Origin: a virus
Virus record (IMG/VR): IMGVR_UViG_3300012936_000110
Coordinates: 1 to 29,303 of that record
Length of the DNA: 29,303 nt
Direction: 5' to 3' (one strand)
This document shows, one piece after another, positions 1 through 12,829 of the stretch. Within the stretch, counting starts at the first letter, position 1. Every line of letters begins with the position of its first letter. Under the pieces are notes generated by a model. It did not search any database and was not told the DNA's origin. It saw nothing but the letters and a program-made list of their open reading frames with translations. The position numbers and the translations under genes were made by a program.

Positions 1-336
1 ATCTGTTCTTAATATATCAACAATCTTATTTGCTAATACAGTAGGAGTTTCTTGCCCCATTAAGTGTTTGTACTTCTTTGCCCAAGTATAAGAAGAGTCA
101 CAACCTTTTTCCCAAACAGGAAGATCTTCAACTCTCTTTACCTGACTTACATCATAATCTAAAAATGGCAAATCATATGTTTCTGGATTAGTTGGATCTA
201 TTTGCCCAAACCCACTACATTGTAAGTTACAAAGAAAAAATCTTATCCAAGCAGTCGGAACACCTGTATAGTGTCCTTCTCCTTGAATACTGTGAAAGAT
301 TTCACTGTAATAATATTTCTTCTCTGCTTTGTCCAT
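1..336 (-). CDS. queE: 7-carboxy-7-deazaguanine synthase QueE (3' end beyond window)
   Basis: Radical SAM enzyme that converts 6-carboxy-tetrahydropterin to 7-carboxy-7-deazaguanine, the committed step towards preQ0. I read 112 residues from ATG 336. The N-terminus has the QueE signature SIQGEGHYTGVP (16-27) followed by RFFLCNLQC, with cluster cysteines C36 and C40; a third lies in KGCDSSYTW (C79), matching the CDTKHTW element of bacterial QueE. The spacing is CX3C-X38-C, so about 36 extra residues sit between the second and third cysteines compared with the usual CX3CX2C. The start is supported by AGGA eight bases upstream and a one-base gap after the preceding stop. The C-terminal part lies past base 1. 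FolE is four genes upstream in the same direction, consistent with one pathway. Confidence 0.88.
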   Translation of the reverse strand, partial: MDKAEKKYYYSEIFHSIQGEGHYTGVPTAWIRFFLCNLQCSGFGQIDPTNPETYDLPFLDYDVSQVKRVEDLPVWEKGCDSSYTWAKKYKHLMGQETPTVLANKIVDILRTD

Positions 337-337
337 T

Positions 338-526
338 TTAGTCCTGCAAACTTGCAAGAGGTTCATTTACATAACTATCGTTGTAATCACCATTACTATG
401 AAAGTTACGAGTGCTAGTATCCTTAACAAGTACACCGTCTTTGATTCTATATGTAGTGTATTCTGCTTTGATTACACCTTCAGTACTTCTTTCAATATGT
501 TCTTTCATAGGTCCTTCCCCAATCAT
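338..526 (-). CDS. Conserved-looking small phage protein, 62 aa
   Basis: I do not recognise a domain. The protein is short and hydrophilic, with a middle of alternating polar and hydrophobic residues (VIKAEYTTYRIKDGVLVKDT) that suggests a small beta-rich fold. A longer reading frame extends to 586, but ATG 526 is preferred: it has GAGGAG nine bases upstream and overlaps the previous stop as TAATG. It lies between a small membrane protein and queE in the run beginning at folE, so it is probably co-transcribed with the deazaguanine genes. No role can be inferred beyond that. Confidence 0.7.
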   Translation of the reverse strand: MIGEGPMKEHIERSTEGVIKAEYTTYRIKDGVLVKDTSTRNFHSNGDYNDSYVNEPLASLQD

Positions 527-759
527 TATACAATCTCCTCTACAATGCCTAATACTTCTGCTAGGAAAAATACTGCACCTGAACACATCATTAAAAATCC
601 AACTTCAGTAATAAAGAAGTCAGTGTACATTATTTCTCCAGTCCATAAATTAAATCCTGCCCAAGCAAGTAAGCCTGATGCTACAAATCTAAAAATGCTC
701 TTAACCAGACTCACGGCAAAATGCCCTGCACCTGGATCTTTTGTTGCTACTTTTTTCAT
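526..759 (-). CDS. Small membrane protein, 77 aa
   Basis: Two hydrophobic stretches, roughly residues 15-35 (SLVKSIFRFVASGLLAWAGF) and 45-70 (a Phe/Met/Ala-rich run ending FFLAEVLGI), fit two membrane-spanning helices separated by a short loop (NLWTGEIMYTD). The start ATG 759 is chosen over a longer frame to 843 because AAGGAT sits just upstream and the folE stop is one base away; the longer frame would run deep into folE. No family is recognised. It is embedded between folE and queE and may be carried along with them. Confidence 0.7.
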   Translation of the reverse strand: MKKVATKDPGAGHFAVSLVKSIFRFVASGLLAWAGFNLWTGEIMYTDFFITEVGFLMMCSGAVFFLAEVLGIVEEIV

Positions 760-760
760 A

Positions 761-1447
761 TTAATCCTTTGAGAACTCTTGTTGTAATTTAACATTATCA
801 ATAAACTCTTTTTTAGTTGCTGGATCATTTTTAAATGCTCCACGTAAAACAGTAGTCTGTGTTAAAGAACTATGTGCTTTAATACCTCTGTTTTCACAAC
901 AACCATGAGTTGCCTGTACATAAACACCTACGTGTTCACTACCTGTCTCTCTTTGTATTGCATCTGCAATCATAACATTAAGTTCTTCTTGTAGTGTTCC
1001 TCGCATAGCACACCATTGTGCAATACGAGTATATTTGCTAAGACCTAATAATTTAGGACCAGCAATAATACCAATATATGCCACACCTTTTACAGTCTGG
1101 TGATGATGTGAACACAAACTTGTAAGTTCGCTTCTCACAACAAGCATACCTTCATAACCACCTTCTATGTAGTTAGGAAAGGCACTAGGGTTAGGCATCT
1201 TGTCATATCTACCAGACATAATCTCGTTGATATACATCTTTGCCATACGCCTAGCAGTATCCATACTGTTAGGATCTGTTTCTGTGTCGATTAATAATTT
1301 TTGTAAGACATTTTCAAATGCAGGAATGGCTTCTTCAATGATTGCTTGTTTGTCGCCTTCTTCAAGCACTTCACTGATATTGTCATTTGCCCAATACCTT
1401 ATGTTTTTGTCTTTAAGCCTTTGTATAATTTCTTTTGTTTTGCTCAA
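761..1447 (-). CDS. folE: GTP cyclohydrolase I (FolE)
   Basis: Converts GTP to 7,8-dihydroneopterin triphosphate, the entry point both for folate and for 7-deazaguanine (preQ0) synthesis. In the 228-residue form the zinc ligands are visible as LCSHHHQTVKG (C112 and H115) and THGCCENRG (C183 or C184), matching bacterial C110/H113/C181. The substrate-binding region around GLSKYTRIAQW is intact and length is normal. The frame is open to a TTG at 1489, but that lies about four bases past the expected transcription start; TTG 1447 has GGAGAA six bases upstream and is preferred. A consensus sigma70 promoter (1501-1529) reads into it. With QueE downstream and the DpdA-like gene at 9573-11120, DNA modification is a likelier purpose than folate. 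Confidence 0.95.
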   Translation of the reverse strand: MSKTKEIIQRLKDKNIRYWANDNISEVLEEGDKQAIIEEAIPAFENVLQKLLIDTETDPNSMDTARRMAKMYINEIMSGRYDKMPNPSAFPNYIEGGYEGMLVVRSELTSLCSHHHQTVKGVAYIGIIAGPKLLGLSKYTRIAQWCAMRGTLQEELNVMIADAIQRETGSEHVGVYVQATHGCCENRGIKAHSSLTQTTVLRGAFKNDPATKKEFIDNVKLQQEFSKD

Positions 1448-1500
1448 TTTACTTCTCCGAGTTATAGACGTGGATGTCTCCGCGTTCAAATATACTTTAC

Positions 1501-1529
1501 AGTATATACGTTATTTAGGTTTTTGTCAA
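1501..1529 (-). promoter_or_regulatory. Sigma70-type promoter for folE
   Basis: On the minus strand TTGACA (1524-1529), a 17-base spacer and TATACT (1501-1506). It sits in the only real gap between the 72-aa gene and folE and would give a leader of about 45 bases to TTG 1447. Confidence 0.85.
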
Positions 1530-1542
1530 GTTTTTTATGCAC

Positions 1543-1761
1543 TTAGAAATACTTTTTGAGCATTTCAATTTGATCATCATACTCGGCAATAACCTTAAGT
1601 TCTTTTTCAATCGAATCCAATACATCAGGATGTTCACCAACACCTGCGGCATTCTTCAAAAAGATTTCAACATTCATTGCGTGTTTATGAATGTGTCCTT
1701 CTGCGTGTTTGATTAAAGCCTCTATTGTATTGTCTCTGCTATATTCGCCAACTTTACTCAT
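1543..1761 (-). CDS. Small alpha-helical phage protein, 72 aa
   Basis: The protein is predicted mostly helical, with a His-rich stretch (HAEGHIHKHAMNVEIF, about residues 19-34) and a charged C-terminal helix ending EMLKKYF. Similar small His-containing helical proteins are, as I recall, common in marine T4-like phages, but I know no function. Start ATG 1761 has AAAGGA upstream and overlaps the stop of the SGNH-like gene. It is the last gene before the folE promoter. Confidence 0.75.
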   Translation of the reverse strand: MSKVGEYSRDNTIEALIKHAEGHIHKHAMNVEIFLKNAAGVGEHPDVLDSIEKELKVIAEYDDQIEMLKKYF

Positions 1762-2618
1762 TACTGTTCCTTTCCAAACTGTGATGGTAGATATTTACTT
1801 GCTATAATCTCATGAACTTCTTTATTATAGTGTTCGTCATCTATCGTTTTTGTACCAATATTAGTATCCAAGTTTTGTAGAAACCAACTTTCTACATCTT
1901 GTTTTGCAACTTCCATTAAGTCGAATTTAAAGAAGTCATTTAAATTCTCAGGAATGAAAGTCCATTTATTCAAAGCAAACACTTTGAAACTTGCTCCATT
2001 GTTACGACACAACTCTTGCATAATATATAACTCTTTAGCAAACTCACGTTGTGCTTTTAGGCTCATAAGTTCCATCCAAGTTTTTACAGTCATATACGGA
2101 ACTGATCTTAAATCAGGATCGCCCATCATAAACCTTGGATCAAATTTTACAGTAAACTTACAATTATTTTGAAAGTCTACTGGATAAGCCTGCATCGGAA
2201 TATCAAATACATCTTGTTCTTTATTATGAATTCTTTTAATCCATAAATCAATATTACCTTTTTTATGTTCTAGTGCATATAATTCATCTAATGGAATCAT
2301 TTTTTCATAGTGTTGAGGATAGTGCATACTCAATCTAAATCTATTCCAATATGTATTCTGTACAACAACTTCTTTTATATCATCATATTTTTTAAATAGA
2401 AAACTTAACCATTCGCTATATTCCCACCAACCGTTACTAGGATTAGCAAATATAACTCCGTCAGCACCTTTATTGTTTATATAGTATTCTGCCCAGTTGT
2501 TATCATTCCATTTACCACTAAAAGGCCAAGTTTCTAAATTCCAATCTTGTTCATTATCTGGTAAGTCACCAACATGATATCCGCAGGTATGACTGCAACC
2601 TAACGCCGCGATTCTCAT
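1761..2618 (-). CDS. SGNH/GDSL-hydrolase-like phage protein
   Basis: Of 285 residues, the N-terminus MRIAALGCSHTCG resembles SGNH block I, with Ser9 as possible nucleophile (GCS in place of GDS). Near the C-terminus TIDDEHYNKEVHEII provides the D-x-x-H pair (D260 and H263) expected of block V. The order and spacing fit an esterase/acylhydrolase fold. Between them lies a Trp/Tyr-rich segment (SNGWWEYSEWLSFLFKKY, about 61-78) containing a candidate oxyanion Asn. The substrate is unknown; capsular or lipid acyl groups are possible. The start overlaps the HIT gene stop as ATGA. The fold is an inference from motifs only. Confidence 0.6.
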   Translation of the reverse strand: MRIAALGCSHTCGYHVGDLPDNEQDWNLETWPFSGKWNDNNWAEYYINNKGADGVIFANPSNGWWEYSEWLSFLFKKYDDIKEVVVQNTYWNRFRLSMHYPQHYEKMIPLDELYALEHKKGNIDLWIKRIHNKEQDVFDIPMQAYPVDFQNNCKFTVKFDPRFMMGDPDLRSVPYMTVKTWMELMSLKAQREFAKELYIMQELCRNNGASFKVFALNKWTFIPENLNDFFKFDLMEVAKQDVESWFLQNLDTNIGTKTIDDEHYNKEVHEIIASKYLPSQFGKEQ

Positions 2619-3037
2619 TCTGCAAGTATCCTTTCTTGTGCTTCTAGTATTTCTTCTGTTGTAAAAATACCATTACGTCTATTTGCTTCTTTATCAACAT
2701 ATTTTTGTTTTTCTGGAATGACGCCTCGAACACCACCTTTAGGATCTTTCATGTCGCCTTCACGTCTTGGTATCAAGTGTACGTGTGGATACATTACAGT
2801 TTGTCCTGCTTGTTTACCAACGTTTTGTCCTATGTTAAATGCATCACAATATCCACGTTCAACCCAATCATATCCCCATTTATAAGCGGCAGTGAAACAA
2901 GCGGTTAAGTGTTCCCAGTCTTCTACCTTAGGAACAAATAGAACGTGTCCTTCTGTAACAGGAAACTTGTCCTTAAAAACAGTAAATTGTTTTGTATCTA
3001 CTAATACATCTTTCCAAGGTGTTTCTTCAAATTTCAT
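2615..3037 (-). CDS. HIT-family nucleotide hydrolase/transferase
   Basis: The protein has 140 residues. The HIT motif is YPHVHLIPRREGD (H-phi-H-phi-phi), preceded by the family element FPVTEGHVLFVPK and by GQNVGKQAGQTV. The first His of the canonical HxHxH is replaced by Tyr; the two remaining include the catalytic His. HIT proteins hydrolyse or transfer nucleoside monophosphates from phosphoramidates or dinucleotides. Three in-frame starts exist (TTG 3046, ATG 3043, ATG 3037); ATG 3037 is best placed behind GGA. It overlaps the 75-aa gene upstream and the SGNH-like gene downstream. The actual substrate cannot be told. Confidence 0.85.
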   Translation of the reverse strand: MKFEETPWKDVLVDTKQFTVFKDKFPVTEGHVLFVPKVEDWEHLTACFTAAYKWGYDWVERGYCDAFNIGQNVGKQAGQTVMYPHVHLIPRREGDMKDPKGGVRGVIPEKQKYVDKEANRRNGIFTTEEILEAQERILAE

Positions 3038-3254
3038 TATCATCAATCCATTCTATTACAGGTAACAAAGTGTGCAATCTTCTTCTAGCCTCGTCTTTTG
3101 TAGTTGCAGGAACATAAGCAGTTCCTAAACCATTTTGAATTTCTAATCCTATATCACTATTAGTATCATTCTTTGTCATATGAAATACTTCTGTAATCTT
3201 AAAAGACAAAGAATATACTTTTGTTCTTGCCGGAAATTTAATCACGTTTGACAT
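3027..3254 (-). CDS. Small protein of unknown function, 75 aa
   Basis: Begins MSNVIKFPARTKVYSL, a basic N-terminus, and ends in an acidic WIDDNEI. No domain is recognised. The central GLGTAYVPATTKDEARRRLH suggests a strand-helix arrangement. It overlaps the preceding 236-aa gene by 17 bases and the HIT gene by 11. A consensus promoter (3314-3342) lies just upstream, inside the preceding gene, and could drive it separately. Confidence 0.65.
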   Translation of the reverse strand: MSNVIKFPARTKVYSLSFKITEVFHMTKNDTNSDIGLEIQNGLGTAYVPATTKDEARRRLHTLLPVIEWIDDNEI

Positions 3255-3948
3255 CAGGTATCTCCTTAATCAAACGTTTGGGTCGTAATTTTAATGCTCT
3301 GTTCATTAAATTAATTATACCACCTTTTTTGAATTGTGTCAAGTGATCTTTTCTTTCCAATTCGCGTATGATTTCTGGAGTAAACTCTGTTTCAACAAGT
3401 TTGATGGGTTCTGTCAATTTTGGTGTTGTAAACTTAACATAACACAAAGGATCGCCTCTTTTGATGTTTATGCTATCACCAATTTTATCAAACACAAATC
3501 CCCAACTTATACTTCTTATCCATTTCTGTATATCGAAACTTCCTCCTATAACATTGTTCTTCCATTTTGCATTGTGCATAAAGGGTGGTGTAATTTCCAT
3601 TAAACATGGAGAGTCTGCAACAAACAAATATTTTAAACTAAATTGAAACATTTGTTTATTAGTATCATAACAGTCTTCTTCTGGGTGTACTGTTATTAAA
3701 TTTTGTAATTGATGTGTATCTACTTCATCACTTGTTATTTCTATGCCTTTGTCTGTGCTAGATGCTTTAAAGTTAATTGGACTTTTAAGTACATAATAAG
3801 AATTAAACCAAGATGTAAAAGACGGACAATCTATTACACCTCTGTTACTATAATTCTTATTTGTAACTTTTATTTTGTTTAGTTTTTCAGGCTCCATTAC
3901 AAGTAATTCTGGAATAGCACCTGTCCAACACCAACCAACTTTAATCAT
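3238..3948 (-). CDS. Uncharacterised phage protein, 236 aa
   Basis: I do not recognise a named family. The sequence looks beta-rich with many aromatics; notable elements are DCPSFTSWFNSYYVLKSP (about 40-57) and an RGDPLCYVKF segment near residue 164. The C-terminal tail is strongly basic (LMNRALKLRPKRLIKEI), a possible nucleic-acid or membrane contact. The start ATG 3948 has AGGA upstream and lies inside the end of the phosphoribosyltransferase gene. Codons of its tail contain a perfect sigma70 promoter. Confidence 0.65.
   Translation of the reverse strand: MIKVGWCWTGAIPELLVMEPEKLNKIKVTNKNYSNRGVIDCPSFTSWFNSYYVLKSPINFKASSTDKGIEITSDEVDTHQLQNLITVHPEEDCYDTNKQMFQFSLKYLFVADSPCLMEITPPFMHNAKWKNNVIGGSFDIQKWIRSISWGFVFDKIGDSINIKRGDPLCYVKFTTPKLTEPIKLVETEFTPEIIRELERKDHLTQFKKGGIINLMNRALKLRPKRLIKEIPDVKRD
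3314..3342 (-). promoter_or_regulatory. Consensus sigma70 promoter inside a coding region
   Basis: TTGACA (3337-3342), 17 bases, TATAAT (3314-3319), a complete consensus on the minus strand. It lies in the last 100 bases of the 236-aa gene and would transcribe the 75-aa gene, HIT and SGNH-like genes. Confidence 0.7.
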
Positions 3949-4501
3949 AACTTCCTACGTTTTCCCAAGGATAAACTAACCATACATCTTCTTCTGCTTT
4001 ATTTACTTCATGACAATGATAGTTAGTGTCAGCAAAATTGCTTGATAAATTTTCTGTTAATACTGCAAATCTAACATTTTTACCCCAAACAGTTTCCCAT
4101 GACGGCTCATCAGGTAAACAAGTAGATTGCCAATCTTTTTTAATCCAATTAAATGTTGCTCCTGTATCATTGATGTCATCTACAATTAATATATTTTTAC
4201 GTAGACTAGGATCCCATCTTGAACCTTGTATTTTTGTTACTTCTGGATTACCATTGTAACCAAATGCATCTTCGCTCATCCAGGCATTAGATTCGCTATC
4301 TCTATTATCGTCACGTAAACTTACTTTCAATGCTTCACAACGTATGCCAGTCATGTTACTAATAATAGTTGCTGGCACATTACCACCACGTGTAATACCT
4401 ACTATGTAGTCAGGTGTCCAGTTGTCTGCATACATATTTTTTACAATCTGTACACACATATTTTCTACATCATTCCAAGTGTAGTAGTGTTTTTTAATCA
4501 T
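3941..4501 (-). CDS. Phosphoribosyltransferase
   Basis: The protein has 186 residues. The PRPP-binding loop is plain: NILIVDDINDTGATF, the 13-residue PRTase motif with DD in place of ED. An upstream DYIVGITRGGNVPA provides the PPi loop and second strand, and EALKVSLRDDNR the flexible-loop region. These features put it with xanthine/hypoxanthine-type purine salvage enzymes or with PRTase domains of nucleotide recycling. A reading frame extends to 4537, but ATG 4501 has a strong AAGGAG upstream and avoids running into the oxygenase gene. It could recycle purines from degraded host DNA; the exact base is not determinable. Confidence 0.85.
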   Translation of the reverse strand: MIKKHYYTWNDVENMCVQIVKNMYADNWTPDYIVGITRGGNVPATIISNMTGIRCEALKVSLRDDNRDSESNAWMSEDAFGYNGNPEVTKIQGSRWDPSLRKNILIVDDINDTGATFNWIKKDWQSTCLPDEPSWETVWGKNVRFAVLTENLSSNFADTNYHCHEVNKAEEDVWLVYPWENVGSYD

Positions 4502-4529
4502 ATTTGCTCCTTGTGGAAATTGCCAAGCA

Positions 4530-5705
4530 TTAAACACTTTCCTTCCTTTTGAAGTTTCCGCTTATGCAATATCTATTTTTTCCGCTTACGTTTTTACCTG
4601 TGTAATGTGGAATACTGCTTTTAAAAATTAGTAACATACCTGTTGTAGGTACAATTTGCTTTTCGTATGTGTCTGTGTTTGCAAATACTTTAAAATGTAA
4701 ATTACCTTGTTTAGGCTCAATATTAGGATAGTACACAAAAGATAAATCACTGCCATGATGATTATGAAATGTTGTACTACCATTAGTTTCAGTAAGATGA
4801 GTCCATACCCCTGTTAGTTCGTGTTCGCCATACTTGTCTGTAACTATTCTTTCTATTTCATCAGTAAGTAATTTACAAGCAGGACCGTCTGGGTATATTA
4901 AATCTTCATAGTGTGTATCTTCTGGATTGTTGTCTATTCTATTATCTAATGTATTGTTTATTTCTTCTAATACTTTTGTATTATCTACATTAGTAATATT
5001 AGTTTCAAATACACTTATATTAGCAACACTATGATCTATTTCCTTAATAGGCAAAGGCGGAATATATGCATCTTCATTCCAAGGATATGTTTCTGGATAT
5101 CCCATTCTAATTGCACCTTGTAGTTTACCATGCACATCTTCGTCATATGCAACAAACTTAAACGTAGGAGTAAACCTATGTGCATCTCTTAAAGGTGTAG
5201 CAGTATGTAAGATATTGCTTTTCCACATAAGCATTCTACCTGGAATAGGTGGTATAGCATAAATTAATGGATAATCTTTATCGCCTTCTAACTTACCTTC
5301 TTCTTTTAAATTTGTAATAAACTTTGTTTCGCCGCCATCATTTATGTCCCAAGTTTCATTTGCATAAAACATAAAGGTATATGCATCTTCTCTTTCATCA
5401 TCAACGTGATAAAAAGCAGGTTCTCTTGGAGCAAAAATATTTGCGTGTGATCTCTTTAAAATATATCCATGCACTTCTGGACAATGCTTTTCTACAAATT
5501 CCCAAAGAGTATGAAATATTTTTGTACCTAAATAATCACCTGTACTCATTCCTGTTGGAGGCAAATCAACATTATCAACTTCACCAAATAAGTATGGTAA
5601 GTTTTTTACATCCATAACTAGTTCATGTAGTTCAGGCGGAATAAACACATCATCATATATGATCATTTTTCCATTAAGAAGTTTTGATATTACTGGATCA
5701 TTCAT
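4530..5705 (-). CDS. Tandem double-domain 2OG-Fe(II) oxygenase-like protein
   Basis: The protein has 391 residues with two oxygenase-like halves. Domain 1 (about 10-190) has H100-x-D102 in FYHVDDERED, the distal H167 in SNILHTATPL and R177, the full 2-His-1-carboxylate set plus 2OG-binding Arg, with GGETKF between. Domain 2 (about 225-390) has HNHHGSDLSFVYYP (H314/H316), PTTGMLLIFKSSIPH (H367) and a downstream Arg in KNRYCISGNF. Prolyl-hydroxylase-like domains of this sort hydroxylate proteins or nucleic acids. The two halves differ in type, so this looks like a fusion rather than a simple duplication. The start overlaps the cupin gene as ATGA. The substrate is unknown. Confidence 0.8.
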   Translation of the reverse strand: MNDPVISKLLNGKMIIYDDVFIPPELHELVMDVKNLPYLFGEVDNVDLPPTGMSTGDYLGTKIFHTLWEFVEKHCPEVHGYILKRSHANIFAPREPAFYHVDDEREDAYTFMFYANETWDINDGGETKFITNLKEEGKLEGDKDYPLIYAIPPIPGRMLMWKSNILHTATPLRDAHRFTPTFKFVAYDEDVHGKLQGAIRMGYPETYPWNEDAYIPPLPIKEIDHSVANISVFETNITNVDNTKVLEEINNTLDNRIDNNPEDTHYEDLIYPDGPACKLLTDEIERIVTDKYGEHELTGVWTHLTETNGSTTFHNHHGSDLSFVYYPNIEPKQGNLHFKVFANTDTYEKQIVPTTGMLLIFKSSIPHYTGKNVSGKNRYCISGNFKRKESV

Positions 5706-6151
5706 CCTTGATTATGCCTTGGGTCTGTTTGTTGTAAATAGATTTGATTTTGTACCCAAATACCATCTTTAACAAATCCCCAATCCTTTCTTTTCTTTGC
5801 CATATAGAATATGCTCCAACAAGGAATTTCATTTCCGTCTTTGTCTTTTGCAAGTTCTAGCCAATGCAGATCTTCTGCCTTTCTAAATCTTATGTGTCCA
5901 GGTCCTCTCCAAAACTTTCCTTCTGGAGTATGTTCCCAGTATCCGCCTTTTAATATCATAGCACCCCAATCCCATGGATGATCATGTAGTGTTGGTTCAT
6001 CACTTACTAAAACTTTGTGAAGTGTAACATTAAAAGGAAAGTCATTTCTATCTTTTAAGAATATATAGTAACGAATAAGATAAGGTATTGTACCTGTTCT
6101 ATCTGTAATAATACGTTTCCTATCCTTAAAAAAGTTAAAAAGGTGCTTCAT
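5702..6151 (-). CDS. Cupin-like protein, 149 aa
   Basis: The core contains the cupin metal-site element TLHDHPWDWGAMILKGGYWE (about 54-73), with two His in HDH and a following Gly-rich strand, and RGPGHIRFRKAEDLHWLEL as second motif with a further His. This arrangement fits a single small cupin barrel as used by sugar isomerases and cysteine-dioxygenase-like proteins. The enzyme activity is not predictable. It sits directly before the double oxygenase gene with a 4-base overlap, and both may act on the same target. Confidence 0.7.
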   Translation of the reverse strand: MKHLFNFFKDRKRIITDRTGTIPYLIRYYIFLKDRNDFPFNVTLHKVLVSDEPTLHDHPWDWGAMILKGGYWEHTPEGKFWRGPGHIRFRKAEDLHWLELAKDKDGNEIPCWSIFYMAKKRKDWGFVKDGIWVQNQIYLQQTDPRHNQG

Positions 6152-6530
6152 CTTTATCTTCTTTCTGCGACTTATAGTCGTCTACACATAGTCTATATAC
6201 TTCTACAAATCTATCATATTGTAGTTTCAAAGCAGGATATAAATCAATCATATCCTCAATTCTATACTTACTTGGCCAAGTATCATCACCTGTATCTAAG
6301 TTACCAAATGATGGTGCAAAGTCTGTGCTTGTATCAAATGTAAGTGTTGTTCCACTGTTAAGTGCATCTTCATCTAGAGTGTAGTCTGATGGTGCAGTAT
6401 ATGTAATGTTGTAGTCGTTATTTGTTGAAACAATACCACCGACAGTTGTACAGGCAGTTGTACAGGCACTTGTATAAGTCTCATCGCCTATACTGATAGT
6501 AAATTTTTCGTTAAGTTCTTTCTTGGTCAT
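6135..6530 (-). CDS. Uncharacterised phage protein, 131 aa
   Basis: The first two thirds are rich in Thr, Ser, Asp and Tyr (for example TYTSACTTACTTVGG, about 18-32, a short internal near-repeat ACTTACTT), as in small virion decoration or fibre-like proteins. The C-terminal third changes character to a helical KYRIEDMIDLYPALKLQYDR element and an acidic tail (SQKEDKDEAPF). No named family is recognised. It overlaps the glycosyltransferase upstream by 20 bases and the cupin gene downstream by 17. Confidence 0.6.
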   Translation of the reverse strand: MTKKELNEKFTISIGDETYTSACTTACTTVGGIVSTNNDYNITYTAPSDYTLDEDALNSGTTLTFDTSTDFAPSFGNLDTGDDTWPSKYRIEDMIDLYPALKLQYDRFVEVYRLCVDDYKSQKEDKDEAPF

Positions 6531-7593
6531 TTATTGCCCCATATAATGCTTTACCACTGAAAAACTTATCTTGTAATACTTTTGTTTGTTTAGAAAGTGC
6601 AGGCAAGTATTTTTCATAGTTTTCCATATAGTCTTTAATTTTACTTATTACTGCTTCTCTGTGTTTTTCATAAGACTGAAAACTTTCAGTCCATTCACTT
6701 GGATATTTAAATTCATCAAGTGCCATTTCACTGTAACTTAATCTATCAGGAACCATTGGAATAGTATTAACTAATGCACCTTCATACCAACTAATACCAA
6801 GTGTTTCTTGCAAATTAGCACTAAACACCAACTTTGCTTCACCTAGTAAATTATGATATTCGTTCTTTGTAAGTGTTCTTTCTTGACAAATAACTAATTC
6901 ATAATCATATAAGTGTTCTTTTAAATCTCTAAATATTTCTGGTTGTTTTTCTGGAGCAACTCTATGTGGGAATAAAATAATATCTTTTTTAGGCATACCT
7001 TTGTAACTATCTAAACTATTCTTTAGATATTCCATAGGCCAGCCAACACGTTGTATTTTGCTTTTATCTGTGCTTAATCCTACATAGTTGCCAACTTCTT
7101 TAAATGCATCTACAAAAATGTTTATGTGGAAATCACTAGCATAAAAGTTATTATCATAACATTCAAACATAGAACGTTCTGCATTTCTAACCCAAGGCTT
7201 ATCACCAATAAGTCTTCCTAAAAAGTCCGCAGGATCGTAACTGCCGGCGTGCCACAAGCCACCCACTTTAATTTTAACTCCGAGCAGTTCAGCCATATAT
7301 TTAAGTTGGATAACAGTAGGATTCCAAGCATCAGTATAAAGAAAGTAATCGCCATCTTTAATTTCGCCATTACAAAACTTCTCCCCAATGATTTCTAGTT
7401 GTTTACTTTTGTAAACATTTGTCCCACCAAAGTTAAGAAATGCCCCAGGCGTAGTAGCCTGAGGCGTCTCTCCTCCACTTATAACTTCGACATTAGAGTT
7501 AGTTGCACGTTTTAATTGCTTTGGAAGATAATCTTTCCATTGCTTTGTGTAACGTGTATCTACTGCTTCAATGTCAACGATATAAATGGTCAA
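6511..7593 (-). CDS. GT-B fold glycosyltransferase
   Basis: The protein has 360 residues. The second half shows the GT4-like layout: DIILFPHRVAPEKQPEIF (about 204-221), then YELVICQERTL, LLGEAKLVFSANLQETLGIS and the donor-site region WYEGALVNTIPMVPDRLSYSE. The N-terminal half has the acceptor domain with LYTDAWNPTVIQLKYMAELL. The start is TTG 7593: it has AAGGAG six bases upstream and overlaps the previous stop as TTGA. Such enzymes in phages glycosylate DNA bases, host surface sugars or virion proteins; nothing here decides which. Because this phage may carry a modified base, DNA cannot be excluded as acceptor. Confidence 0.8.
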   Translation of the reverse strand: MTIYIVDIEAVDTRYTKQWKDYLPKQLKRATNSNVEVISGGETPQATTPGAFLNFGGTNVYKSKQLEIIGEKFCNGEIKDGDYFLYTDAWNPTVIQLKYMAELLGVKIKVGGLWHAGSYDPADFLGRLIGDKPWVRNAERSMFECYDNNFYASDFHINIFVDAFKEVGNYVGLSTDKSKIQRVGWPMEYLKNSLDSYKGMPKKDIILFPHRVAPEKQPEIFRDLKEHLYDYELVICQERTLTKNEYHNLLGEAKLVFSANLQETLGISWYEGALVNTIPMVPDRLSYSEMALDEFKYPSEWTESFQSYEKHREAVISKIKDYMENYEKYLPALSKQTKVLQDKFFSGKALYGAINDQERT

Positions 7594-7793
7594 TGCATTC
7601 TCCTTTTGTTTCCAAACCTTCTTGGCTTACGCAGTTTGGAAGGATCTAAGTATAATTGCCAAATCTTAGATTTAGTATTATACAAATCTTTTTCATCAAA
7701 CGTAAAACCATACGTTTGACAAAAATAGCGGTAAGAATCAAGATCGTCGAAAATCTTTACGATCTCTGGATGCTCTTCCCAGTAGGTCTTCAT
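7590..7793 (-). CDS. Small basic protein, 67 aa
   Basis: Helical N-terminus (MKTYWEEHPEIVKIFDDLDS) with a Tyr/Phe-rich centre (YRYFCQTYGFTF) and a basic end (KLRKPRRFGNKRRMH) that could contact nucleic acid. ATG 7793 is chosen over the frame to 7856 because AGAAGGA precedes it and it clears the upstream gene. No family recognised. It is part of the run from the QueD-like gene to the glycosyltransferase. Confidence 0.65.
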   Translation of the reverse strand: MKTYWEEHPEIVKIFDDLDSYRYFCQTYGFTFDEKDLYNTKSKIWQLYLDPSKLRKPRRFGNKRRMH

Positions 7794-7806
7794 TTTCTGG
7801 TTCCTT

Positions 7807-8247
7807 CTATTTGTAGTATTCAATATGTGCACCGTTCTCTCCGTCTTCGGACACATCTATATGAACTTCTCTTCCAGGATATTTTGTGTTGATTTGATTG
7901 TACAAATCATCACTCATCATTTCACAACTTTTATAATCTAATTCAAGTGTCTTCTCCTCATAAAGTTTTTCTAACCATCTCTTGAATTGTATAAACTCGA
8001 TATCTCTGTCATTGTGTGTTACAGAAATAGCGACTTTAAAGTGAAAGATGTGTCTGTGTGGATAACCTAAAAACGACACATCATACTCATCACCAGTTGC
8101 TAGATTAGGATCATCTAATGCCGCCGGATATTTATGGATACCTTCTTTTCTAAAAGTAACCCAAATCATTCTTTTTGCTGTATTCATAGTTTTATCTTTT
8201 CTGTCTTTTTCAAACTGTTCTTGTATTAATCTATCAGTTATACTCAT
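7807..8247 (-). CDS. QueD/PTPS-like T-fold protein lacking the usual catalytic Cys
   Basis: Its 146 residues align in order with 6-carboxytetrahydropterin synthase landmarks. H38 in GIHKYPAAL could be the first zinc His, and H64-R-H66 in YPHRHIFHF replaces HGH with both metal His kept. NDRDIEFIQFKRW resembles the MVMDFGDLK strand-helix, and VSEDGENGAHIEY resembles the VSETPTSGAEY end with E134. The nucleophile Cys expected four residues before the HxH is Leu60, and the catalytic His of LDH is Tyr105. I infer a T-fold protein of the pterin/deazaguanine group with altered chemistry or a binding role. A promoter (8248-8276) abuts it. ATG 8247 or an internal ATG 8187 could be the start. Confidence 0.55.
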   Translation of the reverse strand: MSITDRLIQEQFEKDRKDKTMNTAKRMIWVTFRKEGIHKYPAALDDPNLATGDEYDVSFLGYPHRHIFHFKVAISVTHNDRDIEFIQFKRWLEKLYEEKTLELDYKSCEMMSDDLYNQINTKYPGREVHIDVSEDGENGAHIEYYK

Positions 8248-8276
8248 AATATACTACCTTTTGCCTCCGTTGTCAA
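8248..8276 (-). promoter_or_regulatory. Sigma70-type promoter for the QueD-like gene
   Basis: TTGACA (8271-8276), 17 bases, TATATT (8248-8253) on the minus strand. The -10 touches ATG 8247, so transcripts starting here would be nearly leaderless for that ATG; the internal ATG 8187 may then be used. Confidence 0.7.
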
Positions 8277-8772
8277 CCGGATTATCTTCCTCATATTCAC
8301 TCCAACTTGTGAATTTCTTACGTTCCAATAAGTCGTGTATTTGATGTACCCATACACCTGGATTGGAAAATTTAAAGTCTGTATCATCAATTTTGATACA
8401 AGCATTATAGTTTAATTGATTTATATAAGGCAACTTAATGCTTATTTGACTTATAAAGTTCTGTCTTTCATTGAATCCATTTTCTAGCACCCAATCATGA
8501 TATTTTACATCATAATCTAAAGTAACCATATACTTCTTATCCAATAAACCATAAACTAGTTCTTCCCAATCTTCTTTAGGAACAAAACTTTGGTTAGCAC
8601 CTAGATAGATATGATCTACGTGTGTTTCTTCTGCTTTGGCAATAACTTCTTCTAAAGGTCTACAACCTACAACAAACAATGTGTCCATGTCATATGCAGG
8701 AGTTCTTTCTACTTCAAACCCTGTGAAATAAACTACATTTTCGTCTACACCTGATGCATAATCTCTTTTCAT
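8254..8772 (-). CDS. Uncharacterised protein, 172 aa, upstream of the QueD-like gene
   Basis: Elements include TLFVVGCRPLEEVIAKAEE, HIYLGANQSFVP, KYMVTLDYDVKYHDWVLENGF and FISQISIKLPYI, a repeated strand-then-helix pattern that could be part of an alpha/beta barrel. No radical SAM cysteines or other catalytic motif is visible. I recall this type of protein as conserved in marine T4-like phages but without a known role. It has its own upstream promoter-like site and is followed after six bases by the QueD-like gene, so a link with deazaguanine synthesis is possible but unproven. Confidence 0.65.
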   Translation of the reverse strand: MKRDYASGVDENVVYFTGFEVERTPAYDMDTLFVVGCRPLEEVIAKAEETHVDHIYLGANQSFVPKEDWEELVYGLLDKKYMVTLDYDVKYHDWVLENGFNERQNFISQISIKLPYINQLNYNACIKIDDTDFKFSNPGVWVHQIHDLLERKKFTSWSEYEEDNPVDNGGKR

Positions 8773-8778
8773 ATTATT

Positions 8779-8807
8779 ATATTAACCTCATAGTGTTGGA
8801 TTGTCAA
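8779..8807 (-). promoter_or_regulatory. Probable sigma70 promoter for the 172-aa gene
   Basis: TTGACA (8802-8807), 17 bases, TAATAT (8779-8784, 4 of 6 to consensus); a TATAAT overlaps but at 20 bases. Weaker than the other promoters of this window. Confidence 0.5.
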
Positions 8808-9375
8808 GAGCAGATCCTGACAAATCGCAATTAAAAGCAATACTAATTCTATCATTATTGCTAAAGTTATCTTTTACTTGATGATTTATCCACCCAGGAA
8901 AACTAATAAGCATTCCTTCTTTTGGTGTCACAGTATATCTTGTACCATTAAATTCATTACCCATACCAACTAGTTTTGGCGGTAAAGCATATTCAGTAGT
9001 CTGTGCTGGTGGAAATAAAACCAAATCGCCACAGTTTTGATCTGCTTTAATATAATATACACAGGCTGTAAAGTGTCTTGGGTGCATATGAGTTTCATTA
9101 ATGTTCTGTGGATGTTCTAAAGGTCGTGTTACATTTAACCATGCTTGATTAACTTTTATTTCACAATCTTCTACTAAACCCCAAAGCATTGTTAACTTCT
9201 TACAATGTAAGTTTACTGCTTCAAGTAAATCCGAAAGTTCTTTGTCATGTAAATTTAAGTGACTGCTTTGATTGTTTGGACCTGCTTTTTTGTAGGCATA
9301 CTTCATCAAACTATTATTGTTAATAGTTAGATTCTCCCGCGAAAACGGAGTAGTAAATAATGGAGTAGTCTCCAT
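8788..9375 (-). CDS. 2OG-Fe(II) oxygenase superfamily protein (family 5 type)
   Basis: The protein has 195 residues and starts METTPLFTTPF, the usual beginning of this family. The iron site is H96-M-H98 in NETHMHPRHF and H155 in FPGWINHQV, with R166 in NDRISIAFNCDL as the 2OG-binding Arg. VYYIKADQNCGDLVLFPP fills the middle. These proteins hydroxylate unknown targets in marine phages. ATG 9375 is preferred to the frame start at 9432 because it clears the upstream small gene and matches the family N-terminus. It is the last gene of the clamp/transglycosylase run, so a role in tailoring modified DNA is conceivable but only by position. Confidence 0.85.
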   Translation of the reverse strand: METTPLFTTPFSRENLTINNNSLMKYAYKKAGPNNQSSHLNLHDKELSDLLEAVNLHCKKLTMLWGLVEDCEIKVNQAWLNVTRPLEHPQNINETHMHPRHFTACVYYIKADQNCGDLVLFPPAQTTEYALPPKLVGMGNEFNGTRYTVTPKEGMLISFPGWINHQVKDNFSNNDRISIAFNCDLSGSALDNPTL

Positions 9376-9385
9376 TCCTACTTCG

Positions 9386-9589
9386 TTAGGATCTATTGAG
9401 TCCCAAGGTTTTTTTAACATCTTCGATTGCATCTTTTATCGCTAGTTTAATTTTCTTATGCCTTTGTAATATTTCTTTGCCTGTCCATGATCTATCTTGC
9501 CTACGTTCTTTTTCCATTTGTTCAACTTTTTTATGATAGTAAGTGAACTCTTTTTCCAATGTGCCTAACTTTTTAGATTTGTGGGCCAT
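9386..9589 (-). CDS. Small basic coiled-coil-like protein, 67 aa
   Basis: Highly charged and helical throughout (KLGTLEKEFTYYHKKVEQM, then KERRQDRSWTGKEILQRHKK), with heptad-like spacing suggesting a short coiled coil. Start ATG 9589 has GGAACT upstream and overlaps the transglycosylase gene by 17 bases. No family recognised. Tight linkage between the DpdA-like gene and an oxygenase makes it a candidate accessory subunit. Confidence 0.65.
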   Translation of the reverse strand: MAHKSKKLGTLEKEFTYYHKKVEQMEKERRQDRSWTGKEILQRHKKIKLAIKDAIEDVKKTLGLNRS

Positions 9590-11120
9590 TTTCTAGTTCC
9601 TCCAGTTTATTGTTTTCTTCTTCAGTAAACTCCTCTGCAGGTTCTGTTTTTGTAGCAGAGTCTGAAGTTTCCTCGAATAGGTTTGCGAACTGCGTACTTG
9701 CATTAATAGTTCGTTTACCTGTTGCTCCTCTAGTGCCAATAATTGACATCCAGAATCTTGAAAATTCTTCTATTACTGCATTCGCTTCGTCTCTGTTGTC
9801 AGTTGCGAATATTGCCTCCACAACATCACGGAAAAATAACCTGTCAAACCGCTCTTCCACAAGCATTGACGGAATGATTCCATTGTCGTATTGTCTATTT
9901 GCTTCTTGGACGGCGTTGATGTGCATCCAAACATTGTGTCCCATTTGTATTGCATAACTAAAACTATCCCAACTTGTTTTACCTTCTTTACCTATTTTAT
10001 TTAGGTCACCTGGTGCATATATACAAACATCTTTAGCATTAAGTCCTTTAGTAATAGGACTATCTAAGAAACTTGAATGTTTGCCTTCTCTAACAAAAGC
10101 ATCAGCAAAAGGTGTTGTATCAGTTGCAAGTGCCTTGTCATCAATACTAGGCACCATTCTGTAAACCCATTTGGTTCTGTCTTTTGTTTCTAGTTCACAA
10201 TATACTTGACCATTTGCAGTTGCCAAGAAAGGACTTGCACAATCAAATGTAATTGTAAAGTTTTCATTGTGATATTTTCTTACTGCTCTTTGTACATCTG
10301 TAAGAAGTGTTGCCCACTCTAGTTTACTTGTACCTAAGAAGTGCATAAAGTCATGTTTACCTTTTTCAAGTAATCCATCAAAACGTAATGCAACAAGACG
10401 TTTAAGAGCAAGATGAATATCACACATATTCTGTCCACCCATACTCCAACCATTAAAGTGATCTGTATATTTTTTAGGATCACAGTAGTCTTTCATTTGC
10501 TGATACCAATCTTCTGCGTCAGCATGATTTTCACCTTGTAATACATTTAAGAACTTACAATTACCATTACGATTTTTCATAAAGTAATCATTGTTTATTC
10601 TAGTGGCCGCTACTGCTTCTTGATATGTACTAATACCTGTTGCTTTTACACCCGCAGGAGAACGAGATACCCAAGCCGGAATATCAAGTATCATACCATA
10701 ATCCATGTATGCGTCCATCCAAGTTAAAACTTGTTCACGTTTCTTTTTTGCTTTAGGGCAATTAGGATCTTTCCAGTCACCTTCCCATACACCCTTACCT
10801 ATTTGGAAACCACCTGAATCACCTAACAACCAAGAGTTTTGTCTATCACGATCACGTACCATTAGTTCTTTAGAAACATCTTTATTAACATCTAAGTCGG
10901 CGTGTCCTGCCGAATACAAACTCCATTTGTATTCAAACATACTCTTGCTAGGATTTAGCCAGTTCATGCTTTCTACTTCATTTGGAAAGTTAGATGGTAT
11001 TCGTGACTTTTCTACATATTCTTCTCTACGTTGCTTACCAATGAAGGTTGCAAAGAATCCGCTAATCGCTGGAAGAAAAATTGCGTAGTCTTTTTGTTCT
11101 TGTGTTAGGTTAGTATTCAA
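9573..11120 (-). CDS. dpdA: DpdA-like guanine transglycosylase (TGT superfamily)
   Basis: DpdA enzymes exchange guanine in DNA for a 7-deazaguanine base such as preQ0. The 515 residues contain TGT landmarks in order: LLGDSGGFQIG (D101-S-G-G-F-Q106), LDIPAW (145-150), NVLQGE (192-197), GWSMGG (224-229), HFLGTS (260-265) and ITFDCASPF with D283 in the place of the TGT nucleophile. The CxCxxC...H zinc site of tRNA TGT is not visible after it, arguing for the phage DNA branch over a tRNA enzyme. The C-terminal 45 residues are acidic and probably disordered, with QFANLFEE (477-484) resembling a clamp-binding motif. The gene overlaps its upstream neighbour as ATGA and is in the gp45 operon. FolE, QueE and a QueD-like protein elsewhere in the window support the function. 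Confidence 0.8.
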   Translation of the reverse strand: MNTNLTQEQKDYAIFLPAISGFFATFIGKQRREEYVEKSRIPSNFPNEVESMNWLNPSKSMFEYKWSLYSAGHADLDVNKDVSKELMVRDRDRQNSWLLGDSGGFQIGKGVWEGDWKDPNCPKAKKKREQVLTWMDAYMDYGMILDIPAWVSRSPAGVKATGISTYQEAVAATRINNDYFMKNRNGNCKFLNVLQGENHADAEDWYQQMKDYCDPKKYTDHFNGWSMGGQNMCDIHLALKRLVALRFDGLLEKGKHDFMHFLGTSKLEWATLLTDVQRAVRKYHNENFTITFDCASPFLATANGQVYCELETKDRTKWVYRMVPSIDDKALATDTTPFADAFVREGKHSSFLDSPITKGLNAKDVCIYAPGDLNKIGKEGKTSWDSFSYAIQMGHNVWMHINAVQEANRQYDNGIIPSMLVEERFDRLFFRDVVEAIFATDNRDEANAVIEEFSRFWMSIIGTRGATGKRTINASTQFANLFEETSDSATKTEPAEEFTEEENNKLEELENGPQI

Positions 11121-11324: not shown

Positions 11325-12056
11325 CTATTTAGATTGTGCTGGCAAAATGTAATCATAGTTAGCAAGTCCGCTATCTACACTAATTTGCATCGCACCTTGA
11401 TCTGAGATCTTCATATTAATTTTACCATCAAGTCCAAGTATTGCTTGAACCTGTGTTACTGGCCAACTCCAAGTGTGTTTTAGTTCACCACCTACTGATG
11501 GTTGAAAAATAAACTCACCTGCGTGTGTGCTTTGATCACCAAATGCAAACACAAGGTTACCGTTGTCTGTTTTAACATTAAACACAGTTTCCTCTGTATG
11601 TGCCGCACTTTGTAATTTCATTCTATTGATACTAGCAACACTTGGCTCAAATTCTACTTCCCAACTTGCGCCTTTAAACTTAACACTCTTAAGTTTTTCT
11701 TCAATAATTGCTTTGTTCATAAAGCGATAATCATTTTTAAAGTCACCGCCTTCGTTTTCAAAGTGAATATGTGTAGGAACTGTTTCTCCGTTCCTTTCCT
11801 GTTGTTCTACAGAAATCTTTGCATTCTTTTGATACTCTGGATTCTTTAAGTGTAATGCTAACTTGTCTAAGTTAGGCATACCAAACACACCGTTAAATTC
11901 TGTAACGTTGCTATTTGTATTCGCAGTTAAGATAACACTTCTATCTTCTGCCATACTTTCGATACCTGTTGCTTGATCGTCACTTGTAACTTTCACTAGA
12001 TTCAAGAAACCTAAGGAATGTGTATGAGCAACAATATCTTGTAAAATGTCCTTCAT
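11325..12056 (-). CDS. 45: Sliding clamp, T4 gp45-like
   Basis: DNA polymerase processivity ring that in T4 also recruits the late sigma complex. The 243 residues (T4 gp45 has 228) follow the marine T4-like clamp pattern: N-terminal helix MKDILQDIVAHTHSLGFLNL, alternating strands and helices, and a C-terminal strand ending MQISVDSGLANYDYILPAQ. Identification is by overall similarity as I recall it and by context with gp43, exonuclease and DsbA-like genes. AGGAG precedes ATG 12056 and a strong promoter (12081-12109) lies directly upstream, so it heads the operon that contains dpdA. Confidence 0.85.
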   Translation of the reverse strand: MKDILQDIVAHTHSLGFLNLVKVTSDDQATGIESMAEDRSVILTANTNSNVTEFNGVFGMPNLDKLALHLKNPEYQKNAKISVEQQERNGETVPTHIHFENEGGDFKNDYRFMNKAIIEEKLKSVKFKGASWEVEFEPSVASINRMKLQSAAHTEETVFNVKTDNGNLVFAFGDQSTHAGEFIFQPSVGGELKHTWSWPVTQVQAILGLDGKINMKISDQGAMQISVDSGLANYDYILPAQSK

Positions 12057-12070
12057 TGGGTTTTCTCCTG

Positions 12071-12829
12071 TTAATTGTTTATTATATTTAGGTTTTGTGG
12101 AAAAGTCAAGTCTCTTTTTTGTTTAAGGTATTCAAAAAGTTTTACTTTTGGTTCCCAACCTAAATCTCGTAATTTCGAAATGTCAGCAATATTATCTAAC
12201 CTTTCGTGTTCATCACCAATTCGTTCTTCAACCTTTATGTTGAAAAAGTCGGTAATCTCTTTTAAAGGTGTACTGATACCTGTTCCAATATCAAATACTC
12301 CTGAAACTTGTTGTGTTAATAAAAATTTAATTGCTTCACAAACATCACTTATATGGATAAAGTCTCTTTTATGGTTTGTGTTAATAAATGAAATGTCTTT
12401 TCTAAATAAACGAGGTATAAACATATTGGGCCTTTGCTGACTGTCATTGTATATAGTGCAAAAACGCAATCCTATGCTACCTTCTGGCGCCATGCGTTCA
12501 ACTGTATATTTTGAAAGTGCATAAGGATTTCTATCAGGTTCTTTTGCAGTACTCGAACTAGCATATAATATTTTTGTATTTTTAAAATGCTCAAATAATC
12601 TTTTGGTTGCTAATACATTGTTTCGCCAATAAGCATCTGGATCAACTAGACTTGGTCTAATTCCACTACTTGCCGCTAAATGAATTACTGCATCAACTTC
12701 ATAGTTTAAATCACAAGTAAGTAAATCTTGTCCGGCACTTTTATCAATAGTATAAATTTGATGCCCTAGTAAATGTTTTACTAGTTCACTGCCTACAAAT
12801 CCTTTACTACCTGTAACTAATATTTTCAT
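12071..12829 (-). CDS. NAD-dependent epimerase/dehydratase (extended SDR)
   Basis: The protein has 252 residues. The Rossmann motif is GSKGFVG (7-13, GxxGxxG), followed by AVIHLAASSG and catalytic SSST with Y103-x3-K107 in NPYALSKYTVE. The later FDIGTGISTPLKEI is the usual substrate-domain element of nucleotide-sugar epimerases. The product sugar is unknown. The start overlaps the glycosylase-like gene stop by four bases. Its last 35 bases contain the promoter of the clamp gene. It may work with the glycosyltransferase at 6511-7593, but they are in different operons. Confidence 0.88.
   Translation of the reverse strand: MKILVTGSKGFVGSELVKHLLGHQIYTIDKSAGQDLLTCDLNYEVDAVIHLAASSGIRPSLVDPDAYWRNNVLATKRLFEHFKNTKILYASSSTAKEPDRNPYALSKYTVERMAPEGSIGLRFCTIYNDSQQRPNMFIPRLFRKDISFINTNHKRDFIHISDVCEAIKFLLTQQVSGVFDIGTGISTPLKEITDFFNIKVEERIGDEHERLDNIADISKLRDLGWEPKVKLFEYLKQKRDLTFPQNLNIINN
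12081..12109 (-). promoter_or_regulatory. Sigma70-type promoter for the gp45-dpdA operon
   Basis: TTGACT (12104-12109), 17 bases, TATAAT (12081-12086) on the minus strand, within the end of the epimerase gene and 25 bases upstream of the clamp ATG, with AGGAGA in between. Confidence 0.82.

Follow-up and report, generated by a model that had tools for sequence, protein, structure and literature searches.

Vibrio phage nt-1, a carrier of the guanine transglycosylase DpdA2, is reported to contain dPreQ0 (PMC6884629, whose main text holds neither of the terms 'cyanophage' and 'Synechococcus'). Some jumbo phages are predicted to incorporate deazaguanine, according to a review (PMC13282480). Here we analyse a set of genes that bears on such modification in the virus record IMGVR_UViG_3300012936_000110, over a window of 29,303 bases, the end of which coincides with the record boundary. 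A preliminary description of this window had named four open reading frames, for a FolE, a QueE, a QueD-like and a DpdA-like protein, as a 7-deazaguanine DNA-modification pathway scattered over its left half. All four were recovered on the minus strand, and 'scattered' is accurate for the window. A pathway directed at DNA is still the best-supported reading, whereas synthesis of preQ0 by the phage has become doubtful and the QueD-like protein is not a plausible plain QueD. With a probability of about 0.62 we read the locus as a phage DNA-modification module in which an enzyme of a DpdA-like subfamily inserts a 7-deazaguanine and a glycosyltransferase decorates it. Compared with the known phage 7-deazaguanine systems, we propose as new the transglycosylase subfamily, the lack of any QueC seen in close relatives and the glycosyltransferase partner.

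The gene at 9573-11120, whose coordinates had been given correctly, encodes the putative transglycosylase of 515 amino acids. By sequence it has no match among the Pfam, PHROGs, NCBIfam and PADLOC models or in the PDB. These library results were rejected as evidence against a tRNA guanine transglycosylase (TGT) relationship: the Pfam family PF01702 misses the records of phages 9g and nt-1 too, so its non-match, which extends to all 35 family members, cannot separate DpdA from other families. TGT fold and motifs were backed by structure and profile comparison. The AlphaFold model (pLDDT 86) gave a best VIA-align Z of 19.7 to TGT, with 4.5 Å over 311 residues, and all 50 rows listed are TGTs, as are the first 20 Foldseek matches. 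Judged from the model, which shows a TGT-type (beta/alpha)8 barrel, the protein belongs to the TGT superfamily.

A profile of 35 hand-chosen family members matched a DpdA2 profile (nt-1 plus 9 of 10 loci) in hhalign with an E value of 1.8e-12 and a probability of 97.7, and a bacterial TGT profile (18 of 19 TGT loci, one being dropped by a motif filter) with 2.8e-7; unrelated control pairs gave about 0.5. By profile the family is thus nearer to DpdA2 than to tRNA TGT, and the grouping with tRNA TGTs that the preliminary description had set against its DpdA assignment was not observed. HMMER cross-matches were weak (family profile to the DpdA2 of Acidovorax phage ACP17, 8e-5; DpdA2 profile to the family member of Vibrio phage 2.275.O, 1.8e-4). 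With a TGT hidden Markov model (HMM), ten isolate loci yielded no match to either the new family or DpdA2, and pairwise BLAST of the enzyme against DpdA2 and against the DpdA of phage 9g gave nothing useful. When the PDB was searched with the family profile, nine of the ten weak matches were TGTs (E 0.59 to 1.8).

Three aspartates, D101, D146 and D293, are invariant in the 35 members and are aligned by hhalign with TGT aspartates, which we take to be Asp102, Asp156 and Asp280 in TGT numbering. Q195 is invariant in a second alignment of 32 members and is placed one residue off the glutamine of the TGT base pocket, presumably Gln203. With DpdA2 of nt-1 (YP_008125322) the enzyme shares the superfamily and the motif order DSGG, G-rich, HxLG, (F/Y)D, but no meaningful pairwise BLAST similarity. 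With tRNA TGT it shares the fold and the aligned catalytic Asp positions; it differs in having neither a PF01702 match nor the zinc motif, and the host bacteria of its relatives carry a separate normal TGT. The same role is proposed for it as for 9g DpdA, to which a single-sequence profile comparison was not useful (E 0.061, 16 columns). Because DpdA2 is distant, we do not file the family there and propose a sister subfamily on the basis of these profiles. Further subfamilies, DpdA3 and DpdA4, were reportedly named by Cui in 2023, and the present family may equal a named one. That the 515-residue protein is a DNA 7-deazaguanine transglycosylase we consider very likely.

The gene association was followed in viral loci, taken as the best 80 of each of two lists and collapsed from 157 to 121 distinct ones; a gene was scored as present wherever tblastn matched it within the locus, and too-short loci are omitted gene by gene. 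The relatives keep a block of DNA polymerase (71 of 71 loci), sliding clamp (112 of 112), transglycosylase, the protein encoded at 8254-8772 (103 of 104), a QueD-fold protein (88 of 89) and a glycosyltransferase, the last being found in all 74 loci whose downstream sequence reaches 4.5 kb or more. FolE and QueE are present in 49 of 54 and 24 of 28. Two members of the block, the glycosyltransferase at 6511-7593 and the protein at 8254-8772, both on the minus strand, had been overlooked before.

The glycosyltransferase is predicted to decorate the inserted base, and its assignment as GT4-like draws on weak PF00534 matches in relatives and a sequence motif. Weak PF00534 matches occur in 8 of the 16 members compared, the best at 1.1e-3; the member in the window is unmatched, and the search for PDB sequence relatives gave none. 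In the family alignment E263 and E271 are invariant with EX7E spacing, which we take to be the motif of GT4 glycosyltransferases.

In phage isolates the pairing recurs. PA5oct carries the glycosyltransferase (43% identity, E 6e-98) directly after the transglycosylase, followed by the QueD-fold protein and, about 1.3 kb further, QueE. Phosso has the QueD-fold protein, glycosyltransferase, FolE and QueE near polymerase and clamp. In ACP17 and X1 the glycosyltransferase adjoins a DpdA2 (E 4e-61 and 6e-55) with the QueD-fold protein beside it, a few kb from a DNA polymerase, and ACP17 also carries a homolog of the protein at 8254-8772, whose HMM matches the gene immediately preceding DpdA2 with 8.9e-28. 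Nineteen phage records contain the glycosyltransferase, 16 of which are among the 17 records with the DpdA-like enzyme; the remaining three belong to ACP17 (one phage with two records, one of them read) and X1. Only one of the 17 lacks the glycosyltransferase, Vibrio 2.275.O, where QueC, QueF, FolE, QueD and a QueE match are present. In PhiXhv-15 a distant glycosyltransferase lies beside a QueC-containing protein. Two proteins tried as further members, Vibrio AUS03050 and Phosso XYS97598, were rejected as not of this family. As a side observation, in a stretch of Xanthomonas phage PhiXhv-15 (L287:4659-7893) the related glycosyltransferase has as neighbours a PIG-L deacetylase and a protein annotated as aminotransferase, the region of which matches QueC; among 20 records searched, the PIG-L deacetylase occurs in PhiXhv-15 only.

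A genome scan for the transglycosylase family gave 47 bacterial loci, 42 of which were clustered (L205-L246). In 8 of these 42 (L206, L210, L219, L231, L234, L235, L236, L239) transporter-like, glycosyltransferase and transglycosylase genes are contiguous. A Vut_1/YhhQ-type transporter was confirmed in L210 by Pfam; a Vut_1 genome search placed L206 and L210 over the cut-off and L235 below it (located by coordinates), and the transporter identity in the other five comes from sequence clustering. Integrase-family genes are found in 5 of the 8, and a normal TGT is also present in all 19 bacterial genomes searched (of 20 requested). In L231, L234, L235, L236 and L239 a sensor-kinase-like gene was seen too (Pfam, one representative), with, by our reading, a response regulator upstream. 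Where bacterial DpdA-like genes lack the glycosyltransferase, they often adjoin one of two large families of about 500-900 amino acids, representatives of which have no Pfam match. On contigs of a 'Bacilli' metagenome-assembled genome (L244, L246) the DpdA-like gene is very distant; it is accompanied by FolE, QueD- and QueC-HMM matches and by a gene resembling QueE. In L244 the QueE-like frame has 592 amino acids and appears to hold an intein.

For the supply of the base, the window offers FolE and QueE. The former, GTP cyclohydrolase I, was identified correctly (PF01227 2.1e-37, over cut-off; PHROG 2197 8.7e-42), with the open reading frame running over 761-1489 from a TTG start instead of 761-1447; against the NCBIfam equivalog it scores 138.6 bits and does not reach the cut-off of 202. 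It is present in 18 of 22 records of relatives and in all ten further records (five viral contigs, PA5oct, Phosso, Vibrio 2.275.O, PhiXhv-15, nt-1). The QueE-like radical SAM protein (7-carboxy-7-deazaguanine synthase; PHROG 2076 2.2e-20) likewise keeps its family assignment, in an open frame of 1-366 and not 1-336. It is cut at the first base of the window, so that its 3' end is missing and 122 of about 300 amino acids are present, and the truncated protein matches the NCBIfam QueE models at 1e-5 and weaker, far under cut-off. Its cluster cysteines read CxxxC and then CDSSYTW after an insertion of about 36 amino acids, as in the six viral-contig relatives displayed. Counted between cysteines 2 and 3, about 38 residues lie in the window's QueE and in these relatives (CNLxC ... 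CDSSYTW; L096-L100, L103) and two in the QueE of Phosso and ACP17. QueE occurs in 17 of 22 records; besides it, five or six more radical-SAM-like matches per record were noticed in G003, G005, G014, G017, G019 and G020.

The 'QueD-like' protein at 7807-8247 has the QueD/PTPS fold, as its designation implied, and departs from QueD in its catalytic residues. The AlphaFold model (pLDDT 90.6) finds QueD/PTPS in 18 of 18 Foldseek matches below 1e-3 and E. coli QueD in VIA with Z 12.2; the alignment with QueD retains three zinc-ligand histidines as well as a late Glu. The QueD Cys and Asp-His, to which we ascribe catalytic roles, are absent in 14 of 14 aligned relatives, and the protein is therefore not filed as QueD. 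Against a three-sequence QueD profile it gave no signal (0.54), and against a larger one 7.6e-4 with a probability of 25 (controls 0.1-0.3), so that the fold decided. Since a separate annotated QueD or PTPS lies near the QueD-fold protein in ACP17, RHph_I1_18 and phiST, it likely does something other than the standard QueD step. A CDG (7-carboxy-7-deazaguanine) decarboxylase, DpdL, is reportedly described in work by Cui in 2023 and a 2024 review, and the present protein may be this enzyme. Canonical QueD/PTPS (PF01242) is found in 4 of 22 records, and in two loci (L167, L201) a QueD match lies immediately downstream of the transglycosylase. The neighbouring protein at 8254-8772 is conserved in the block with unknown function; the Phosso 'glycosylase' XYS97380, tried as its relative, shows no detectable relationship.

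In the proposed scheme, FolE and QueE, with QueD activity from host or phage, would convert GTP to CDG or a derivative. The 515-residue enzyme would exchange guanine in phage DNA for that base by the TGT base-exchange mechanism, with Asp293 as nucleophile and Asp101 and Asp146 in base recognition. The GT4-type glycosyltransferase would attach a sugar to the inserted base, and the QueD-fold protein probably performs a further step on a pterin or 7-deazaguanine intermediate. We infer that such DNA would be protected from restriction. That the glycosyltransferase acts on the inserted 7-deazaguanine we rate slightly better than an even chance. In the scheme it would, like the T4 DNA glucosyltransferases (PMC13216743), place a sugar onto an already unusual DNA base; the present enzyme would differ in acting on 7-deazaguanine, and the likeness drawn here is one of role.

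Among the literature matches listed, judged by title and start of abstract and with most subscription papers outside, there is no report of glycosylated 7-deazaguanine in DNA, nor of deazaguanine in PA5oct-like phages. The main text of the paper on Paride, a PA5oct-like phage (PMC10761892), contains neither 'DNA modif' nor 'deaza'. The pairing of transglycosylase and glycosyltransferase genes in relatives hints at a sugar-decorated DNA base not described before. The presence of glycosylated 7-deazaguanine in the DNA of these viruses, of PA5oct-like jumbo phages and of several bacterial loci, perhaps as the carboxy form in lineages lacking QueC, falls just short of an even bet.

Several observations weigh against this scheme. 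Against TGT, Foldseek gives modest TM-scores (0.32-0.41 by query length), and its 24 matches below 1e-3 include 3 to other TIM-barrel glycosidases or designs. Q195 is replaced by Ser in PA5oct and by His in PhiXhv-15. The TGT zinc motif CxCxxC occurs in none of the 35 members, and likewise in none of 10 DpdA2 proteins, compared to 12 of 18 TGTs (absent from 6 of 18 as excised here). Since the Pfam match is weak and a PDB sequence relative absent, the acceptor of the glycosyltransferase is a guess. Because all 121 viral loci come from closely related viruses, their synteny is not independent evidence, and the stronger evidence comes from outside this set. The transglycosylase is separated from the glycosyltransferase by about 171 kb in Phosso and about 92 kb in PhiXhv-15, and the Vibrio 2.275.O member has no such partner. 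Glycosyltransferase and QueC are not mutually exclusive, as PhiXhv-15 has both. In the accessible literature no nucleoside measurement was found for these phages.

The preliminary description had further suggested that the phage makes preQ0 or a derivative. QueC is, as it stated, not in the window, and QueC (PF06508) exceeds its cut-off in none of 32 close-relative contigs (22 + 10, longest 256 kb), nor does it in PA5oct or Phosso. Phage-made preQ0 is doubtful for this reason, although the contigs are mostly fragments and the absence is no proof. The same search recovered all three records with annotated QueC (9g, nt-1, Vibrio 2.275.O) and PhiXhv-15; In having QueC, nt-1 differs from the close relatives of the window, none of which exceeds the cut-off. 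Sub-threshold matches in 4 of the 32 contigs (E limits 0.001 for the 22 records and 0.01 for the 10 further contigs) belong to PP-loop proteins, which we did not accept as QueC. L082 and L083 each encode a PP-loop protein that resembles QueC but is divergent and carries a Cys-rich tail; both lie outside the modification block, that of L083 sitting, by our reading, between radical-SAM-like frames.

The preQ0 step could be supplied by a host QueC. An ordinary preQ0-type modification is the strongest competing explanation, in which the phage boosts CDG, host QueC converts it to preQ0 and the DpdA-like enzyme inserts it, the glycosyltransferase acting on another target, be it the cell surface, a protein or some unrelated phage glycan. 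Distant members of the family do occur in QueC-bearing phages, Vibrio 2.275.O (with QueF as well) and PhiXhv-15, the former without such a glycosyltransferase, and the Vut_1 transporter gene of the bacterial loci fits uptake of a free deazaguanine base. However, the glycosyltransferase accompanies both DpdA subfamilies, being adjacent in PA5oct, ACP17, X1 and the 8 bacterial loci, and QueC was not seen over the cut-off in the 32 close-relative contigs, PA5oct or Phosso, so that we regard this explanation as unlikely.

Less probable still, by analogy with glycosylated queuosine, is a tRNA-modifying TGT variant whose glycosyltransferase partner would make a glycosylated queuosine-like tRNA base. 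Mannosyl- and galactosyl-queuosine are known from animal tRNA, the enzyme has the TGT fold, and FolE and QueE also serve queuosine synthesis. The profile is nearer to DpdA2 than to TGT, though, and a separate normal TGT exists in all 19 bacterial genomes searched. The clamp and DNA polymerase lie close by in every viral locus counted for them, and the polymerase is only a few kb away in ACP17 and X1. DpdA2, the enzyme of the phage reported with dPreQ0 (PMC6884629), is itself linked to this glycosyltransferase family. The nearby replication genes and the link to DpdA2 are the reason why DNA is favoured over tRNA as the substrate. It is very improbable that the genes act as auxiliary metabolic genes, increasing folate or queuosine in the host while the phage leaves nucleic acid unmodified: FolE and QueE do occur in many phages, but this would leave a transglycosylase-fold enzyme with its catalytic aspartates kept, near replication genes in the viral loci, unexplained.

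The replication genes serve as context. The sliding clamp at 11325-12056 (minus strand) matches a Phosso protein annotated as sliding clamp with E 1e-40; the PHROG it matches is a family of unknown function. The DNA polymerase at 14077-16746 (minus strand; PHROG 262 1.2e-196) is closest, among phage records, to those of large-genome phages, for example Sinorhizobium phage Phosso, with which it is 51% identical, and Agrobacterium phage Atu_ph07. Between them, at 12071-12829 on the same strand, lies an optional nucleotide-sugar epimerase (PF01370 8.6e-25; PHROG 540 1.1e-43; 54 of 102 viral loci), which possibly supplies the sugar donor. Pfam also places 2-oxoglutarate-Fe(II) oxygenase domains at 4530-5705 and 8788-9432, one of the two proteins being a double-domain one.

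At least 594 relatives of the transglycosylase were found in one viral-contig scan. As the four annotation libraries miss this enzyme, current counts of deazaguanine modification among uncultured viruses may be too low. If the proposed module of DNA transglycosylase and glycosyltransferase is true, its product would be the purine counterpart of the glucosylated cytosine of T4 and the DNA counterpart of glycosyl-queuosine. Should the sugar step be real, it would represent a new class of DNA base hypermodification in PA5oct, Paride, Phosso, ACP17 and X1.

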